DNA from: Pseudomonadota bacterium | Lineage (GTDB): Bacteria > Pseudomonadota > Alphaproteobacteria > Acetobacterales > Acetobacteraceae | DNA length: 64,000 bases | Direction of reading: 5' to 3' | Assembly: GCA_021801255.1 (NCBI GenBank) | Contig: JAJYYH010000003.1 | Span: forward strand, 1 to 64,000 | Part shown: positions 2,871-9,296 of the stretch, piece after piece | How positions within the stretch are numbered: position 1 is the first letter of the stretch | Layout: every line of letters starts with the position of its first letter | Notes under the pieces: generated by a model | The model's database searches: none | What the model was told of the DNA's origin: nothing | What the model saw: only the letters and a program-made list of their open reading frames with translations | Translations under genes and position numbers: made by a program

Positions 2871-2944
2871 TCACCAGGTCTCCCCGTAGGGCCGCAGGTC
2901 CAGCTCATGGGTCCAGGCGTCGCGCGGCTGCATGTGCATCTGCC
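2871..2944 (-). pseudogene. 3' remnant of the SDR gene interrupted by the integrated element
   Basis: In the frame ending at TGA (2871-2873) this strip encodes QMHMQPRDAWTHELDLRP and then YGETW. That is a typical C-terminal tail of SDR oxidoreductases paired with HCCA isomerases (PRDAWTHELDLRP). It has no start codon of its own that would give a functional protein. Joined to codon 223 of the SDR fragment at 9297-9965 it gives one uninterrupted 245-codon gene, so the two are halves of one gene separated by 6.35 kb. Confidence 0.85.
2940..2944. repeat. Left copy of the 5-bp core repeat CTGCC (attL side)
   Basis: CTGCC here and at 9297-9301 flank the element. On the minus strand it reads GGCAG, the end of the TGG CAG (Trp-Gln) codons of the SDR gene. 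Deleting the element plus one copy restores the frame exactly, so this is the recombination overlap or target duplication. Confidence 0.75.
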
Positions 2945-2958
2945 GAACCTGTTTCCGG

Positions 2959-2973
2959 CACTGTTTGACAGTG
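2959..2973. repeat. Inverted repeat CACTGT-TTG-ACAGTG at the left end of the element
   Basis: A perfect 6-bp inverted repeat with a 3-base centre, 15 bases inside the left boundary and upstream of the integrase gene. It is followed by TTTACAAC (2975-2982), an octamer that recurs in the same orientation at the right end (9270-9277). Either could bind the integrase, an excisionase or a repressor; the role is inferred from position only. Confidence 0.5.
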
Positions 2974-3033
2974 TTTTACAACCCATAGGAACTGGCTGAA
3001 ACTCTAACGATAGCATCCGCACTCGTTCCGTTG

Positions 3034-3051
3034 CGTCCCGTCACGTCCGGC
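3034..3051 (+). repeat. Left 18-bp subterminal direct repeat (candidate integrase arm site)
   Basis: CGTCCCGTCACGTCCGGC matches 9161-9178 in 17 of 18 bases and in the same orientation. Upstream at 3002-3009 is CTCTAACG, also repeated before the right copy (9119-9126), and downstream both sides have GTGTAGC. The repeat lies just before the integrase gene, as arm-type sites often do. An alternative is that these repeats mark an older or nested att site. Confidence 0.6.
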
Positions 3052-3088
3052 GCTAGAGTGTAGCATCATGCATAGCGAAGGTGCTGCC

Positions 3089-4321
3089 ATGGCTGGCAAG
3101 CTGAACACCCTTTCCATCAAGCGGATCACGAAGCCCGGCAACTATTGCGACGGCGGCGCCTTATACCTTCGGGTAGCGCCGAGCGGTGCGAAAAGCTGGT
3201 GCTACAGGTTCAAGAAGCGCGATCCGCTCACCGGCAAGGATAAGCAAACCTGGCTGGGCCTTGGCTCGCTCGAACTGGTGACGTTGGCCGAAGCGCGAGC
3301 GCGATGCTTGGAACTGCGCCGGCTGCTGCGCCAAGGGGGTGATCCGCTCGGCGCTGAACGCGCCAGGCGAGCCGGCCATGCTGGCGGCAGGGCGTTCGCC
3401 GAAGTGATGGCGCTCTACATCGACGCGCACAAGGCCGGCTGGCGCTCGGAAAAACACGGCCGCCAGTGGCAAACATCGCTTGAACTGCACGCCGCCAGGC
3501 TGCTGCCGCTATCCGTGGCCGCGATCGATACCAGCGCCGTGCTCGCCGTGCTGCGGCCGCTATGGAATGAGAAAACCGAGACGGCGAGCCGCCTGCGCGG
3601 CCGGATCGAGAACGTCATCGCCTTCGCGACGGCGCGCGGCTGGCGCGTTGGCGAGAACCCAGCACGCTGGCGCGGGCACTTGGATAGGCTGTTGCTGGCG
3701 AAGGCCAAGGTTGCCGCTGTAGAGCATCATCCCGCCGTGCCGTGGCAGGATATAGGCGCCGTCATGGCAAGGCTGGCCGAGAGCAAGGGCACGGCTGCCA
3801 GGTGCCTGCAATTCGCGATCCTGACGGCTGCTCGAAGCGGTGAAGCGCGCGGCGCCAGGTGGAATGAGATCGATCTCGACGCCGGCCTATGGACGGTTCC
3901 GGCCAGCCGCATGAAGGCCGGCCGCGAGCATAGGGTGCCGCTTTCCGCGCCGGCGCTGGCGATCCTGGCCGAGATGCTGCCGCTCAAGCGGCGGCCTGAC
4001 GGGTTGGTATTCCCCGGCGGCCGGCCTGGCGCGCTGCTGAGTGACGTGGCGCTGAGCAAGGCGTTGCGCGCTGCCGGCGGCGGTGATGCCACGGTTCACG
4101 GCATGAGATCGAGTTTCCGCGACTGGTGCGCCGAGGCGACGGCATACCCGCGCGAGATCGCCGAGGCCGCGCTCGCACACTCGAACCCCGACAAGACGGA
4201 AGCGGCCTATCTGCGCGGCGATGCGCTCGATAAGCGCCGCTTGCTGATGGCCGCATGGGGTGAACACTGCCTGAGATCGCCAGACGCCACGGCGGCCATC
4301 GTGCCGCTGCGCCGCGCCTGA
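3089..4321 (+). CDS. int: Tyrosine-type site-specific integrase, P4 family
   Basis: A 410-residue integrase that would insert and excise this element. The N-terminus (KLNTLSIKRITKPGNYCDGG, then LYLRVAPSGAKSWCYRF) is the DUF4102-type arm-binding domain of P4-like integrases. A SAM-like core-binding region follows, then the catalytic domain with the arginine in TAARSGEARGARW, the HxxR motif in HGMRSSFRDW, a histidine in ALAHSNPDKTEAAYLRGD and the nucleophilic tyrosine in AAYLRGD. The ATG at 3089 has GAAGG seven bases upstream and starts at family homology; an ATG at 3068 would add seven residues. It lies just inside the left subterminal repeats. P4-family integrases usually target tRNA ends, whereas this site is inside a protein gene. 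Confidence 0.93.
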   Translation: MAGKLNTLSIKRITKPGNYCDGGALYLRVAPSGAKSWCYRFKKRDPLTGKDKQTWLGLGSLELVTLAEARARCLELRRLLRQGGDPLGAERARRAGHAGGRAFAEVMALYIDAHKAGWRSEKHGRQWQTSLELHAARLLPLSVAAIDTSAVLAVLRPLWNEKTETASRLRGRIENVIAFATARGWRVGENPARWRGHLDRLLLAKAKVAAVEHHPAVPWQDIGAVMARLAESKGTAARCLQFAILTAARSGEARGARWNEIDLDAGLWTVPASRMKAGREHRVPLSAPALAILAEMLPLKRRPDGLVFPGGRPGALLSDVALSKALRAAGGGDATVHGMRSSFRDWCAEATAYPREIAEAALAHSNPDKTEAAYLRGDALDKRRLLMAAWGEHCLRSPDATAAIVPLRRA

Positions 4322-4594
4322 AACGAGACGGCCAGGGAAGCGCCTGACACGCGCAACCCCGGCCTAAACCCGAACCCATGGGGGACGCCATGGCTGAGCC
4401 TGATCCGAGACATACCGCGCCGGCGCATAGGCGCAACCCTGGCCTGAGCCGCCAATGCCGCACGCTCGCGTCGGAAGCGCCTGATCCGCGCCTGATATTT
4501 TCAGGTATATCAGTTGATTACGTCATACTATCCAACAATCGCATGAACATGGCATTGTAAGGCGTTGTTCACAGAATGAGATGGGACAGTTTCC
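4322..4594. other. Intergenic region between integrase and AlpA-like gene
   Basis: These 273 bases have no convincing gene. The end (about 4490-4560) is clearly AT-richer than the rest of the element and has short self-complementary runs (CTGATATTTTCAGG and GTATATCAG). It probably contains the promoter and operator for the AlpA/primase operon. A 60-residue open frame here shows no family features. Confidence 0.4.
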
Positions 4595-4813
4595 ATGGAA
4601 CCATACGCCTTAACCGTTGCGGAAGCGGTTCGCTTTTCCGGCATCGCGCGGACGCGGCTCTACATGCTTGCCAGTGAAGGCCGCATCGAACTGAAGAAGT
4701 GCGGCTGGCGAACGATCGTTCTTGCCGATGATCTCAAGCGGCTGCTCGAAACCCTGCCGGCGGCTGATATCCACTTGACGCCGCACCGCGCCGCGCCGGC
4801 CGATGCCGCATAA
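4595..4813 (+). CDS. AlpA-like / excisionase-type helix-turn-helix protein
   Basis: A 72-residue protein with a MerR/AlpA-type winged helix: LTVAEAVRFSGIARTRLYML is the helix-turn-helix, and GRIELKKCGWRTIVLADDLKR is the wing and following helix. AlpA-family proteins regulate integrase or act as recombination directionality factors, and they normally sit between integrase and replication genes, as here. It could be an activator, a repressor or an Xis; the sequence does not decide. The C-terminal 15 residues are Pro/Ala-rich and probably disordered. Confidence 0.75.
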   Translation: MEPYALTVAEAVRFSGIARTRLYMLASEGRIELKKCGWRTIVLADDLKRLLETLPAADIHLTPHRAAPADAA

Positions 4814-4831
4814 ACCCCTGAAAACCCACAG

Positions 4832-4865
4832 AAAAAACCCGCCAAGCGCTTGCGACGCCGGCGGG
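4832..4865 (-). terminator. Rho-independent terminator-like hairpin reading on the minus strand
   Basis: On the minus strand CCCGCC (4865-4860) and GGCGGG (4843-4838) form a 6-bp GC stem, followed at once by six T residues (4837-4832). On the plus strand no T-run follows, so it points leftward. No minus-strand protein gene is nearby, which suggests a short antisense transcript from the primase leader ends here. The inner loop also holds AAGCGCTT, a perfect palindrome. Confidence 0.5.
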
Positions 4866-4881
4866 CTGAAAGGCACTGAAT

Positions 4882-5775
4882 ATGCAAACCAAAATCTATC
4901 CCGCACCAGCCGCGCCGTCAACAAAAATTGACGGCGGTGATCTCGCCGCCCGGCTCGGCCTGCATCGCGCGGGCCGGGGATGGCGGGGGGACTGTCCGCT
5001 TTGCGGCTATCGCGGCTCGCTCGCGCTCGACGTTCGCGGCAACCAGCATTTAATCTGGTGCTCGAACTGCGCCGATCGCGCTGGCCTTGCGCGGCTGTTG
5101 CGTGCCGAAGGCGTGCCGCACGTGCCACCCCCTGCCGAGCGCCTGCCGCGCGCCGCACCGGACGCCACGGCCAGGATCGCCCGCGCTGCCGCGATATGGC
5201 GCGGCGCGGAACCGATCGAACCCGGCTCGCCTGCGGCTAAGTATCTGGAAAATAGGCGTATTTCCCACGCCATGAACTCGGCCGCCTTGCGCTGGCGTCC
5301 CGACGTGCCGCACCCTGCCGGCGGCCGGCGCATCGCACTGCTCGCCGCAGTCACCGCACCGGATGGCAGTTTCGCAGGCGTGCAGCGGGTTTTCGTGAAA
5401 CCGGACGGCCGAAAAGCCGATATCGAACCCGCGAAGGCATCCCTCGGCGTTGTCGCCGGTGGCGCTTGCCGGCTCGCCGATCCCGAAGGTGGCGCGCTGG
5501 TGATCGGCGAAGGCGTCGAAACGTCCGCCGCCGCTGGCGCGATCCTTGGCCTTCCCGCATGGTCCGCGATCAGCGCCGGCAATCTCGGCCGATCGCTGAT
5601 CCTGCCACCGGCAATTCGCAGCGTCGTCATCGCCGTCGATCACGATATGGCCGGCCAGGCGGCGGCTCGGGAAGCGTGGCGGCGATGGACACGCGAAGGC
5701 CGGCATGTGCGGCTCGCAACGCCGAGGAAAGCCGGATCGGATTTCGCTGATCTCGCGATGGGGGGTGTGCGATGA
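4882..5775 (+). CDS. Zinc-finger and Toprim-domain primase-like replication protein
   Basis: A 297-residue protein. A CHC2-type zinc-binding region is seen at residues 38-63 (CPLCGY, then WCSNCADRAG). A middle region of the DUF7146 type follows (EPGSPAAKYLENRRI, with the downstream RIALLAAVTAPDG and QRVFVKPDGRKA). A Toprim fold closes the protein, with the acidic glutamate in ALVIGEGVETSAAA and the DxD-like motif in VVIAVDHDMAGQAAA. Such proteins prime DNA replication of phages, satellites and plasmids. It overlaps the helicase-like gene by four bases (ATGA), which implies coupled translation. The zinc finger is close to the N-terminus after a 35-residue variable lead. Confidence 0.85.
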   Translation: MQTKIYPAPAAPSTKIDGGDLAARLGLHRAGRGWRGDCPLCGYRGSLALDVRGNQHLIWCSNCADRAGLARLLRAEGVPHVPPPAERLPRAAPDATARIARAAAIWRGAEPIEPGSPAAKYLENRRISHAMNSAALRWRPDVPHPAGGRRIALLAAVTAPDGSFAGVQRVFVKPDGRKADIEPAKASLGVVAGGACRLADPEGGALVIGEGVETSAAAGAILGLPAWSAISAGNLGRSLILPPAIRSVVIAVDHDMAGQAAAREAWRRWTREGRHVRLATPRKAGSDFADLAMGGVR

Positions 5776-7838
5776 ACCCGCAAACCCCCCGCGCCGCGCT
5801 GGCCGGCATCAAACGCCTTGAGCCGTCCGAGACGCTGCCGGGCGTCAAAGCTGTTGATCCGCCGGCCGTCGTTCTCGACGCGCTCGAAGCCGATGCCGCG
5901 CCGTTCACGATCGCCGCTGCGCCGCCTGATCCGCTCGCCGATCTCGCCGAGCGCGCAAAGGCCGATCCGGCGGCTGCGTTCTCTGATGACGTGATCGAAG
6001 CGCTCGCCGAACTGCGCGCCGAAGATCGCGGACGGTTCGAAGCCATCCGCGCCGCTCTCAAGCGGGCCGGCATCCGCGTTACCGCGCTCGATCCGCTGAT
6101 CTGCACGGCGGCGGGTGATGAAGGCGCGCGCCAGACTCAAGCCGATCTTCTGATCGAGATCGCGGCCGAGGCCGAGCTTTTCCATGATCGTGACAAACGC
6201 GCGTTTGCCGATATTCGCGTTGGCGACGTTCGCGAAACGTGGCCGGTGAAATCGACAGGATTTCGGCGATGGCTCGGCCGAGCGTTCTACAAAAAGCACG
6301 GCGGCGCGCCGAACTCGGACGCTATGGCATCCGCGATCGCGGTGCTCGAAGCCAAGGCACACTATGACGCGCCTGAACGGCCGATTTTCCTTCGCGTTGG
6401 CGAGCACGATAGCCGCTTATATCTCGATCTCTGCAATGATGCGTGGCAGGCGATCGAGATCGATGCCGCCGGCTGGCGCGTAGTTTCCGAGCCGCCTTGC
6501 CGGTTCCGCCGCGCGCCGGGGATGCTGCCGTTGCCGGAACCGGCGCGCGGCGGAACGCTGAACTCGCTACGCGAGTTGCTGAATATCAGCACGGATCAGC
6601 AATTTACCCTTTCCGTAGCGTGGCTGCTGGCGACGTTCCGGCCGTCCGGGCCGTATCCCGTGCTTATCGTCTCTGGCGAGCACGGATCGGCGAAAATGTC
6701 GTTCGTGAGCACCTTGCGCGCGATGATCGATCCCAACAGCACGCCGATGCGCTCGACGCCGCGCGAGGATCGCGATTTGTTCGTTAGCGCGACAAATGCT
6801 CACGTTCTCGCCTTCGACAATCTGAGCGGACTGCCGGGTTGGCTTTCGGATGCCTTATGCCGTCTCTCTACCGGCGGCGGATTCAGCACGCGGCAGTTAT
6901 ACAGTGACGCGGATGAAATTTTGTTCGACGCGATGCGGCCAATTGCACTGAACGGCATCGAGGATATCGTGAGCCGGCCTGATCTCGCGGATCGCGGCCT
7001 TTTCTTGGCGCTCGCGGCGATCCTGGAAGCTGATAGGAAAACCGACAAAGGGATGCGCGCCGCGATCGAGACGGCGCGGCCGGCAATCCTTGGCGCGCTT
7101 CTCGATGCCGTCTCGCGCGGCCTGCGGCGGCTGCCTGGCTTGACGCTGCCGGCGCTGCCAAGGATGGCCGATTTCGCGGTTTGGGCCTCGGCCTGCGGCG
7201 ATGGCGCGCTTTGGCCGGAAGGCGGCTTCCTGCTGGCGTTCAATGCGAACCGCGCCGCCGCGATCGGCGACGTGATCGAAGCGGACGCCGTTGCTTCCGC
7301 GGTGGTGAAGCTGATGGCCGATGCGGCGGAATGGACTGGCACCGCCGGCATGCTACGCCAGCGGCTCGGCGAGATCGCCGGCGAGGCCGCCGCCAAGGCT
7401 CGAACCTGGCCGGGTAACGATCGAGCACTCGCGGGAAAGTTGCGCCGGATCGCGCCTTTTCTGCGCTCGCCGAGCGTCGGGATCGAGGCGATTCCCGGCC
7501 GGAACCACGGCGGGCGGTATATCCACCTTCGCCGTTCCCCTACAGTAGGGAATTTTGCGTCACTTGCGTCACTTGCGTCACAGGAACAAAAAAACTGCGG
7601 GAATCCGCCAGTTTCCGGCGGCTCAAGCCGTGACGCAAAGCGTGACGCAAATCTGGCTGGTGACGCAAACGGCTTCGGCCGTGACGCAAACGGTGACGCA
7701 AACCCGCCGCCTGATCCAGTTTGCGTCACGGATAAGCCATTGGAAACATTGGCTGGTGACGCAAGTGACGCAAATGACGCAAATTCCCCTACCTTTCCGA
7801 CGCCGGAAAGCACGCATACCCGTCGGGGGGTAGTATGA
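5772..7838 (+). CDS. Helicase-like ATPase of mobile elements, with an iteron cluster inside its 3' end
   Basis: A 688-residue protein. The central part is the ATP-binding domain found beside Toprim primases in alphaproteobacterial mobile elements: ISTDQQFTLSVAWLLATFRP, the P-loop-like SGEHGSAKMSFVSTLRA, then LAFDNLSGLPGWLSDALCRL, STGGGFSTRQLYSDADE and ALNGIEDIVSRPDLADR. In the P-loop the residue after lysine is methionine (GSAKMS), where family members usually have Ser or Thr; this may weaken nucleotide binding. Residues after about 595 are low-complexity (SLASLAS, DANGDAN, DASDANDAN) because they are encoded by repeated TGACGCAA octamers. It is probably the replicative helicase or initiator of the element. 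The DNA itself may be its own origin. Confidence 0.8.
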   Translation: MNPQTPRAALAGIKRLEPSETLPGVKAVDPPAVVLDALEADAAPFTIAAAPPDPLADLAERAKADPAAAFSDDVIEALAELRAEDRGRFEAIRAALKRAGIRVTALDPLICTAAGDEGARQTQADLLIEIAAEAELFHDRDKRAFADIRVGDVRETWPVKSTGFRRWLGRAFYKKHGGAPNSDAMASAIAVLEAKAHYDAPERPIFLRVGEHDSRLYLDLCNDAWQAIEIDAAGWRVVSEPPCRFRRAPGMLPLPEPARGGTLNSLRELLNISTDQQFTLSVAWLLATFRPSGPYPVLIVSGEHGSAKMSFVSTLRAMIDPNSTPMRSTPREDRDLFVSATNAHVLAFDNLSGLPGWLSDALCRLSTGGGFSTRQLYSDADEILFDAMRPIALNGIEDIVSRPDLADRGLFLALAAILEADRKTDKGMRAAIETARPAILGALLDAVSRGLRRLPGLTLPALPRMADFAVWASACGDGALWPEGGFLLAFNANRAAAIGDVIEADAVASAVVKLMADAAEWTGTAGMLRQRLGEIAGEAAAKARTWPGNDRALAGKLRRIAPFLRSPSVGIEAIPGRNHGGRYIHLRRSPTVGNFASLASLASQEQKNCGNPPVSGGSSRDAKRDANLAGDANGFGRDANGDANPPPDPVCVTDKPLETLAGDASDANDANSPTFPTPESTHTRRGVV
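7544..7794. repeat. Cluster of twelve TGACGCAA/TTGCGTCA octamers: candidate iteron replication origin
   Basis: TTGCGTCA starts at 7555, 7564, 7573 and 7721. TGACGCAA starts at 7631, 7643, 7661, 7682, 7694, 7757, 7766 and 7775. The first three and last three are spaced exactly 9 bp apart and oppose each other, so 7544-7580 and 7757-7794 form a near-perfect long inverted repeat that also includes GTAGGG/CCCCTAC at the outer edges. The cluster lies in the 3' end of the ATPase gene, where the reading frame tolerates it as low-complexity sequence. Repeats of this density beside primase and helicase genes are typical of iteron origins bound by an initiator. The origin role is inference. Confidence 0.8.
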
Positions 7839-8254
7839 GCGCCGCCTCACGCCTTCGCGAGCAGCTTGCCAGCGCTGGTGTGCGGCTCGCGCTCGATGGC
7901 GACGGCAACCTAGAGTGGCAGGCGCCGGCCGATCCCCCGGCCGCCTTGCTCGCCGAAGCGCGGCGCCTGAAACCCGCTTTGATCGGGCTCTTGCGATCCG
8001 AAGTGACGAACGAGAACAGCGGCCTGCTCTCGCTGGCCGAGATCGCCGGCATGGTGGAAGCGCTCGCCGGCGCCTTGCCGCTCGATGCGCCGGACAGACT
8101 GCGCGAAGCCGCCTGCCTGATGCGCCGCGCCGGACACTGCCGCGCCGAGATCGCCGCGACGTTGCTGCCTGCCGTGCCGCTGGCGACGCTCGGAATGGCC
8201 GCCAGGCTCGCGCTCGAAGATGGACTGGCGGACGCGGTGGGGTGCGAGCCATGA
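7835..8254 (+). CDS. TubC N-terminal docking domain-like protein of the element
   Basis: A 139-residue protein. The first 50 residues (LREQLASAGVRLALDGDG, then AARRLKPALIGLLRSE-like text, seen as LAEARRLKPALIGLLRSE) resemble the TubC-type docking fold (L-GV-L--DG-L ... K--LI-LL) found in proteins beside element primases. The rest is alanine/leucine-rich helical sequence with one cysteine pair (AACLMRRAGHC). Function is unknown; a docking or adaptor role for the replication proteins is possible. It overlaps the ATPase gene (ATGA) and the next gene (ATGA), so all are translated as one block. Confidence 0.6.
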   Translation: MSAASRLREQLASAGVRLALDGDGNLEWQAPADPPAALLAEARRLKPALIGLLRSEVTNENSGLLSLAEIAGMVEALAGALPLDAPDRLREAACLMRRAGHCRAEIAATLLPAVPLATLGMAARLALEDGLADAVGCEP

Positions 8255-8487
8255 GCACGTCGCGGCTTTGCGGCCGGTGTGGCTTGCCGCCGCCGAGCCG
8301 ATGTCTGGCATGCGCGCTGGCGGCGAACCCGCGCGGTGCCGAATCCCCCGCCGAAGCCGCGCAGGCGATCGCCAAGATGGCCGAGCAACTACGCCCGGAC
8401 TGGCAGCAACCCGAGCGATTTTTCGAAGCGAAATCGGCCTTGATCTATGCTGCTCGCGCCTTGGCTGAAACCCTGAAAGGAACATGA
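8251..8487 (+). CDS. Small CxxC zinc-ribbon-like protein of the element
   Basis: A 78-residue protein beginning MSTSRLCGRCGLPPPSRCLA, where C7-x2-C10 and C18-x2-C21 would bind one zinc. The remainder is helical (AEAAQAIAKMAEQLRPDW and FFEAKSALIYAARALAETL). I do not recognise a named family. The start overlaps the previous stop (ATGA), and AAAGGA for the next gene lies inside its end. A nucleic-acid or protein-binding role is inferred only from the cysteines and context. Confidence 0.65.
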   Translation: MSTSRLCGRCGLPPPSRCLACALAANPRGAESPAEAAQAIAKMAEQLRPDWQQPERFFEAKSALIYAARALAETLKGT

Positions 8488-8488
8488 C

Positions 8489-8902
8489 ATGAGCGATGAC
8501 CCCGCACAGAAACCAGTGTCGCCCGCAGTGAACGTCCGCTACATCACGCCCAGCCATGGCAGGGGCAGGTTGACGCCGTTCACGCCCGGCACGTCCGGCA
8601 ACCCCGGCGGCGTGGGCGGGCGCTTTCACGAGGTGCAGCGGTTGGCCCGCGAAGCCAGCCCGGAAGCAATGAAAACGCTGATCGAGATCATGCGGGACGG
8701 CGACGAGGAAACCCGCGCTCGAATTGTGGCGATTCAGGAAATTCTCGGACGTGCGCACGGGCGCATACCGGCAGAGATGAAAGGCGACGGCACGCCGCTG
8801 ATCGATGCCTCGAAGATGAGCGAGCAGCAGCTCGGCCTGCTGATCGAGGCGTTGCGCCTGGCGAAAGCGGCCGGCCCGAGCACGCCGCAGGCCGAGGGGT
8901 GA
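8489..8902 (+). CDS. DUF5681 domain protein
   Basis: A 137-residue protein with the DUF5681 signature: GRLTPFTPGTSGNPGGVGGR at about residues 27-46, followed by helical sequence (FHEVQRLAREASPEAMKTLI and ARIVAIQEILGRAHGRIPAE). DUF5681 proteins are common near phage terminase genes and in mobile elements, and some look like small-terminase relatives; function is not established. An AAGGA lies 8 bases before the ATG. It is the last gene of the element's plus-strand block. If it binds DNA for packaging, the element could be a phage satellite; that is speculation. Confidence 0.75.
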   Translation: MSDDPAQKPVSPAVNVRYITPSHGRGRLTPFTPGTSGNPGGVGGRFHEVQRLAREASPEAMKTLIEIMRDGDEETRARIVAIQEILGRAHGRIPAEMKGDGTPLIDASKMSEQQLGLLIEALRLAKAAGPSTPQAEG

Positions 8903-9296
8903 TCTCGCCGCTGGCGAGCGTGGCGTCTGATAAAGCAGGCGATATCAGATGCGCCGGCACGTCCGCCGGCGCCTAGTGTCAGGTCCGCTGGCGCTCGGCC
9001 GCGCCATCGTTCACGTGAAAAATACACGCGGAACACCGCGCCGGCGCCTCATAACAGGATATCTGACGCGGCCTGATCCTTCAGGCGGAAACAAGAGCCG
9101 ATCACGCTTCCGCGAGCGCTCTAACGCTGGCCGTCATCTGTCCTAACGCTGGCCGCTATCCGTCCCGTCCCGTCCGGCATTATTCGCTCTAGTCCGGCTT
9201 CAAGGTGTAGCTTGGCGGGTATAACGCGGAAACGCTGGTTTGCCGATTTACGTGATGGATACAGCGACGTTTACAACATGCGCGGCGGAAGGTGCG
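8903..9296. other. Right-end non-coding region of the element
   Basis: These 394 bases between the DUF5681 stop and the right boundary have no recognisable gene. They hold two copies of CTAACGCTGGCCG (9121-9133 and 9143-9155), the right subterminal 18-bp repeat (9161-9178), GTGTAGC and TTTACAAC (9270-9277). Short palindromes such as GCCGGCACGTCCGCCGGCGCC occur near 8950. This looks like attachment-site and recombinase-binding DNA. Confidence 0.55.
9119..9178 (+). repeat. Right subterminal repeat block (candidate integrase arm sites)
   Basis: CTCTAACG (9119-9126), a second CTAACGCTGGCCG at 9143-9155, TATCCGTC, and CGTCCCGTCCCGTCCGGC at 9161-9178. The left end has CTCTAACG, GCATCCG and CGTCCCGTCACGTCCGGC in the same order and orientation between 3002 and 3051. 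Confidence 0.6.

Follow-up and report, generated by a model that had tools for sequence, protein, structure and literature searches.

Converging octamer repeats at the 3' end of an ATPase gene as a putative iteron origin of a small integrative element

Why should the final 300 bp of a protein-coding gene carry the same octamer a dozen times, in both orientations? The question is raised by a 64,000-nucleotide stretch of an Acetobacteraceae genome (assembly GCA_021801255.1, contig JAJYYH010000003.1, positions 1 to 64,000; hereafter the window), in which the gene of a Rep-like ATPase, part of a small integrated element, ends in an array of TGACGCAA/TTGCGTCA octamers. Our comparison of homologous loci makes it likely that the array is the iteron replication origin of this integrative element, with the enclosing gene encoding its initiator ATPase.

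A recurring layout of facing octamers

The octamer occurs in 12 exact copies, all within 7555-7782 (228 bp) and all in the last 300 bp of the open reading frame (ORF) 5772-7838, with no further copy in the window; TGACGCAANTGACGCAA has four matches in the host genome, all at this array. Read along the array, three copies lie on the minus strand, five on the plus strand, one on the minus and three on the plus. Exact matching and a scan for 9-bp runs place the left triplet at 7555-7580 (minus strand; iterons 7555-7562, 7564-7571 and 7573-7580) and the right triplet at 7757-7782 (plus strand; iterons 7757-7764, 7766-7773 and 7775-7782), with 9-bp steps in both. An inverted-repeat search returned an outer inverted repeat around them, with a left arm at 7545-7581 and a right arm at 7756-7792. 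Between the triplets, a spacer (7582-7630) with an A-tract (AT content 0.69 over 7582-7597) and a short, weak possible hairpin is followed by five inner iterons on the plus strand (7631-7701; starts 7631, 7643, 7661, 7682 and 7694), a single inverted inner iteron on the minus strand (7721-7728) and, right after it, a second spacer (7729-7756) in which comparison with relatives reveals a conserved box (AACCCATTGAAAAC in the relatives; two mismatches in the window copy). A first-pass annotation of this DNA had reported twelve octamers in 228 bp at a density for which chance was negligible, and two outer clusters with 9-bp spacing and opposite orientation that formed a near-perfect 36-bp inverted repeat. 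Our recount agrees with the first three points, and in 100 dinucleotide shuffles of the window the octamer reached a mean of 1.93 and a maximum of 6 copies versus 12 in the real sequence; the inverted repeat had to be corrected to 37 nt at 92% complementarity.

The same layout recurs at the 3' ends of homologous genes. A scan that let each locus choose its own repeat found converging runs at step 9 in 24 of 64 loci; at steps 8 and 10-15 it found them in 0 of 64 loci at each step, and none of the 192 shuffles gave such runs at any step, nor did the gene-body controls, for which loci whose gene body was too short had been set aside. The 64 loci are those of a 66-locus cluster scan after removal of L033 (identical to L004) and L058 (seemingly the same replicon as L064), and L021-L025, L029, L030, L035, L042, L050, L060, L069, L079 and L081, being partial, truncated or duplicate, were used in neither scan. 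Some redundancy remains, as L005/L026 and L008/L027 each come from one genome per pair, L067/L068 are close plasmids, and L046, L047, L049 and L051 are close relatives. With motifs picked by hand for each locus from its commonest octamers, as also in the synonymous test and the covariation analysis below, converging 9-bp runs appeared in 30 of 36 loci and failed to appear in L006, L038, L048, L051, L054 and L068. The simplest arrays consist of three sites facing three (L018, L044, L047) or two facing two (L056). Records with the strict layout are labelled alphaproteobacterial, betaproteobacterial, Myxococcales and Chloroflexi, some of them metagenome bins; the archaeal plasmid discussed below does not have it.

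Could such a structure be a functionless product of replication slippage or chance? The outer triplets are tandem at 9 bp, as slippage might leave them, and the viral contigs L091 and L093 carry the same octamer in plain tandem runs. Yet the inverted orientation, the irregular inner spacing and the conservation over deep divergence speak against it, and with no cases at other spacings or in the controls, the scan over spacings, the shuffles and the gene-body controls led us to reject this explanation, to which we attach a negligible probability.

Two further features of the array were considered. A box near AACCCATTGAAAAC trails the inverted inner iteron also in relatives with different iterons, and in L014 a stretch resembling it sits past the stop codon; the box could be a second origin element, or in part a reflection of a conserved NPLKT peptide. 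Potential hairpins between the left triplet and the inner sites had good stems in L006 and L034, moderate ones in L026, L004, L007, L001 and L005, and none in L008/L027 when judged against mononucleotide shuffles, so that a conserved hairpin beside the left triplet was dropped as a candidate feature.

Conservation of the array as DNA

The position of the array inside an ORF raises the possibility that the repeat exists at the protein level, with selection acting on the peptide of a disordered, low-complexity C-terminus (DAN/LAS repeats). The array is indeed in frame within a single ORF of the window, residues 592-688, which cover everything that the array encodes, are predicted to be disordered (pLDDT about 30), and NPLKT and THTRRG residues recur in relatives. 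However, the octamers are maintained as DNA. With the peptide held fixed, 20,000 synonymous resamplings produced at most two TGACGCAA-type octamers versus the 12 observed, no octamer of any kind exceeded seven copies in 5,000 such resamplings, and permuting the tail's own synonymous codons yielded at most eight. Across the four elements that share the octamer, 93 of 96 positions are invariant within octamers versus 64 of 132 elsewhere in the array. Indels between octamers change the reading frame in L004/L033, and the same octamer therefore reads DAN and MTQ there. More widely, the octamer is read in at least three strand/frame classes in 18 of 23 tails, and the best repeat stands above every one of 1,000 synonymous resamplings, likewise in 18 of 23. 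The array lies partly past the stop codon in L011, L014, L037 and L075, with 9-bp runs retained. Frame-shifting indels, reading in several frames and on both strands, continuation past stops in some homologues and a copy number far above the synonymous maximum led us to reject selection of the tail as peptide, which we now consider highly improbable; the tail peptide appears to be under little sequence constraint. As a side observation, the tail frame of L014 stops early and the array carries on past that point as DNA; its box and right triplet resemble those of related elements.

These comparisons bear out the first-pass expectation that the array would be conserved as DNA while the protein tail diverges. 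The pattern that it had named as contrary, in which homologues keep the amino-acid tail and lose the octamers, was not seen among the loci examined.

The ATPase as candidate initiator

The gene that contains the array (5772-7838, plus strand) encodes a Rep-like protein of 688 residues, its assignment as an initiator ATPase resting on the ORF and the predicted fold. It has no match in Pfam, PHROGs or NCBIfam, and searching the sequences of solved structures with the ATPase profile returned weak, unrelated matches only (best E 0.05). Among the matches listed, the SaPI5 primase-helicase has the highest Z against the structural model (7OLA; Z 20.3; rmsd 4.3 over 368 residues, within model range 121-581); poxvirus D5/E5 come next and SCCmec Cch lower, and a Foldseek ranking put NrS-1 and SaPI5 on top. 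The P4 alpha chain was absent from the best 50 matches listed for the whole model, a result with which a P4-type relation would still be compatible. The first-pass label of "helicase" therefore draws nothing from the family libraries and gains credit from a predicted fold near that of SaPI5. Residues 505-592 (7284-7547, plus strand) are modelled with confidence (AlphaFold mean pLDDT 89.8) as a winged-helix (WH) domain, the predicted iteron binder; winged-helix folds rank highest in its structural alignment (Z up to 6.5), and its match to the phage P4 origin-binding domain 1KA8 (Z 5.5, 69 aligned, rmsd 2.4) is level with those to many unrelated winged helices. A helicase core with a C-terminal winged helix corresponds, at the level of the model, to the self-loading helicase fold of the SaPI5/D5 type. 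Since the WH ends at about residue 592 and the tail from 592 to 688 is predicted to be disordered, the array starts at the end of the folded protein.

The repeat and the WH vary together across the family. Sites taken from the left cluster include TTGCGTCA, TTGCGCCC, AGCGTCAC, ACCGTCCG, ACCGTCCA, AGCGTTCC, ATCGTCAC, most sites having a CGTC-like core, and in distant elements the octamer differs while the layout is kept. Over the 26 loci whose iteron could be aligned on that core (thus without L018, L020, L033, L041, L063, L065, L067, L073 and L075, and without the GTCCTGCA type of L044, L046, L047, L049 and L051), iteron distance correlated best, among the domains compared, with WH distance (r 0.485; 0.499 for the recognition helix plus wing). 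The WH correlation persisted after controlling for the AAA+ domain (partial r 0.318, permutation p 0.0005), against -0.11 and -0.04 for two other domains under the same control and -0.02 for AAA+ after controlling for the WH. The repeat thus follows the WH more closely than it follows the other parts of the protein, which points to this domain of the ATPase as the likely binder, rather than the AlpA-like or TubC-like protein that had also been put forward.

We propose that the C-terminal winged helix would bind each octamer, and that the outer triplets, facing each other at 9-bp steps, would seat two opposed sets of subunits, which could assemble further into a pair of helicase rings and melt the intervening DNA; priming would then fall to the Toprim primase of the element, and host enzymes would replicate the excised circle. 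An open frame through the origin may serve translational coupling, in that the rep stop overlaps the next start and ribosomes would have to cross the array. Such an overlap, as in ATGA, is present in 15 of 24 array loci when the longest ORF that begins close to the rep stop is counted as the next gene. A broader proposal, on which we are evenly divided, is that of a wide, hitherto undescribed initiator-helicase family, spanning several bacterial phyla and an archaeal plasmid, that often has a self-overlapping origin of converging 3+3 sites (8-9 bp) at 9-bp steps with optional sites between, in which the triplets would template two opposed half-rings, site and WH would change together to give an element-specific origin, and the frame would be kept only for coupling.

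Within the family, 23 of 299 genomes carry a homologue of the ATPase (E 1e-10); the corresponding figures are 17 of 395 for the order (E 1e-60), 12 of 385 for the class (E 1e-20) and 12 of 398 for the phylum (E 1e-30), in genome sets that overlap. Homologues also occur on 28 plasmid records, among them Methylobacterium, Methanothrix (an archaeon), Stanieria and Streptomyces. The homologue on Streptomyces pFP11 (NC_006911.1 25356-27077) is 35% identical and lies after a primase/polymerase gene; nine AGGGACGC repeats with the same GACGC core, not arranged in 9-bp runs, start 554 bp past its stop, and the Rep proteins of pFP11 and pFP1 are reported to bind their iterons (PMC3583192). The homologue on the archaeal plasmid pH6Ac has a weak, sub-threshold Prim-Pol N-terminus. 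A separate AACTTTGC/TGCTCGAA cluster lies upstream of the rep gene on the same plasmid (L065), around 800-1000.

In viruses homologues are rare (two viral contigs and two records of one Microbacterium phage), so no helper-phage link is evident. The small size and satellite-like gene content of the element might nonetheless suggest that the array serves a phage satellite in packaging or in recognition by a helper phage (as a pac/cos-like or induction site), and viral contigs L087, L089 and L092 do carry converging TGACGCAA clusters outside recognised genes, with no Rep recognised among the listed ORFs upstream of the array. The array of L092 is directly followed by a small gene, and that of L089 is about 1 kb from genes that were read as terminase-like by eye and not by family search. 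Homologous genes with repeats are, however, also present on plasmids (pFP11, pH6Ac), and the repeat tracks a WH encoded by the element itself; we judge a packaging role to be quite improbable.

Several observations weigh against an origin with this initiator. The strict layout is missing from 40 of the 64 homologue loci, 10 of which converge at 9 bp with a hand-chosen motif; another 15 of the 40, with tails shorter than 40 residues, lack any repeat cluster in the interval from 400 bp upstream of the match end to 1,500 bp downstream of the stop (17 such loci less L058 and less L075, where the step scan found an array); the array is therefore not universal for the ATPase family. In five of 23 tails (L002, L032, L037, L054, L055) the repeat does not rise beyond the synonymous null. 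Shared ancestry and a hand-made iteron alignment weaken the covariation, which covered domains of the ATPase only. The Walker A motif of the window copy reads GEHGSAKMS (residues 300-314), with Met after the Lys, a position that is Ser or Thr in the other 25 of 26 aligned homologues; the intact GxxGxxK[S/T] is present across the family and not in the window copy, which may thus be inactive or altered, its ATPase possibly defective through this replacement. The parallel with pFP11 presumes that its RepA is the homologue (WP_011265226.1) and that its iterons are the AGGGACGC repeats. GC skew on plasmids pH6Ac and pM44602 and on the M. bullatum plasmid was uninformative on the origin, and octamer clusters reached no more than three copies per 300 bp on the M. 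bullatum plasmid and four on pM44602. Finally, AT content between the triplets exceeds that of the gene body in 16 of 24 loci (Wilcoxon p 0.23), with no consistent AT-rich segment. In the window array it is 0.45 versus 0.35, including the 16-bp A-rich stretch at 7582-7597, and in the four TGACGCAA elements 0.42-0.51 versus 0.35.

The lack of a consistent AT-rich opening segment between the triplets would favour a further alternative, that of a regulatory or partition-like site (operator, incompatibility site or centromere) bound by the ATPase or another protein of the element, with replication starting elsewhere. Iterons often double as control sites, the array stands within an operon-like run of genes, and in L008/L027 two extra iterons with 9-bp spacing lie 218-227 bp past the rep stop, inside the next gene. 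Set against this, no ParA/ParB-type gene was recognised in Pfam, PHROG and NCBIfam scans of the element's proteins, the site follows a helicase gene as origins do in the published accounts of SaPI/PICI, and the repeat covaries with the helicase's own WH. We consider a purely regulatory or partition-like role unlikely, though worth keeping in view. The iteron-origin reading given at first pass is supported by the homologue comparison, in which layout, conservation at the DNA level and covariation with the WH point the same way.

The element, its relatives and known systems

The element extends over approximately 6.35 kb (2939-9292), limits set by the points at which homology to L082, a related element of another genome, begins and breaks off; its ends are placed in this way because no clean att repeat was found in the window. 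All of its recognised genes lie on the plus strand. A tyrosine integrase (3068-4321; Pfam Arm-DNA-bind_3, Phage_int_M and Phage_integrase) is followed by a small helix-turn-helix protein resembling AlpA or an excisionase (4595-4813; HTH_17 2.4e-4 and TIGR01764 0.024, both below cut-off) and by a Toprim (DnaG-type) primase-like protein (4882-5775; Pfam DUF7146, Toprim_3 2e-13, and phrog_510 DNA primase), which confirms the earlier placement of the array in coding sequence next to a Toprim primase. Beyond the ATPase gene, the ATG of the downstream gene (7835-8254) overlaps the rep stop codon (ATGA); this ORF has no Pfam match, and "TubC-like" is the first-pass label for it. It is succeeded by a small ORF with weak zinc-ribbon similarity (8251-8487; DZR 0.018, below cut-off) and a DUF5681-like protein (8489-8902; PF18932 0.0085, below cut-off, and phrog_15261 2.7e-11).

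One genome holds two copies of the module (L082 and L083) on a single contig, separated by 1.3 Mb; the segment over which they can be aligned is limited to 4.5 kb and is 90% alike. The integrase region of the window aligns with L082 and not with L083, which has an integrase-like ORF of its own. L083 is flanked by a 46-bp direct repeat, with copies about 6.95 kb apart, and the end of a tRNA-Lys gene forms part of the repeat. A second homologue, 56% identical and with a different repeat, is present in the host genome of the window.

If the origin reading holds, these loci would supply an origin and an initiator that can be tested in a group of small mobile elements with a replication gene that matched no family library searched, and hint that annotated genes can hide origins. 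Given natural WH-repeat pairs with known differences, origin specificity and incompatibility would become directly testable, and the 3+3 layout at 9-bp steps would offer a simple system for studying the loading of two opposed helicase rings. We found no description of such an array in the open-licence literature, a search of weak scope that covered titles and abstract openings.

Among known systems the nearest are the SaPI and PICI elements. The C-terminal domain of SaPI Rep is described as recognising iterons directly 3' of the rep gene, and that of Cch2 as binding its putative origin (PMC7581432), and PICI origins are described as two iteron sets 3' of rep that flank an AT-rich region (PMC6092414). 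As far as these accounts go, SaPIbov1, SaPI5 and EcCICFT073 share with the locus studied here a self-loading Rep helicase fold, an adjoining primase gene, a small integrated element and two iteron sets at the 3' end of rep, which here overlap the end of the gene. In contrast to them, the whole array here lies within the coding end of rep, the two converging triplets are set at exactly 9 bp, the AT-rich middle is not consistent, and the primase is a separate Toprim protein, whereas SaPIbov1 and SaPI5 have AEP primases. The Rep found here also lacks a match in Pfam, PHROG and NCBIfam, and helper induction of its element is hypothetical.

Phage lambda O is not known to be a helicase, unlike the helicase-type initiator proposed here. 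The lambda ori nevertheless lies within gene O (PMC5043065) and, on that account, provides the parallel of an initiator whose own coding sequence holds an iteron origin, an origin role that here is deduced from comparison; lambda has four 19-bp inverted-repeat iterons by a 40-bp A+T-rich region, compared with up to 12 octamers in a 3' tail predicted to encode disorder. The rep-iteron loci of Streptomyces pFP11/pFP1 and pWTY27 are similar in that Rep binding to iterons is reported (PMC3583192). On pFP11, unlike here, the gene ends about 550 bp before the repeats, which lie outside it, and the primase is of Prim-Pol type.

In satellite P4, the alpha protein combines a helicase with a C-terminal winged helix for origin binding, with the domains fused in a single protein, unlike the separate genes here. 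The repeats of P4 are not known to lie in the coding tail of alpha. The primase of P4 alpha is of Toprim type (PMC4234260), as here, and the similarity of the WH to 1KA8 is tied with many others, as given above. The PICMI satellites of Vibrio are comparable as elements of about 6 kb with int, alpA and a primase and differ in a DUF3987/DUF5906 primase and a site downstream of fis (PMC10803314), a paper whose main text does not contain the word "iteron".

At first pass the placement of the origin had been called unusual, too strong a word given that rep is directly followed by the origin in PICI/SaPI and that lambda has its ori within O. Our best reading of the sequence comparisons is that an origin nested in its own initiator gene would here be of the SaPI/PICI and lambda O kind, in an apparently new form.

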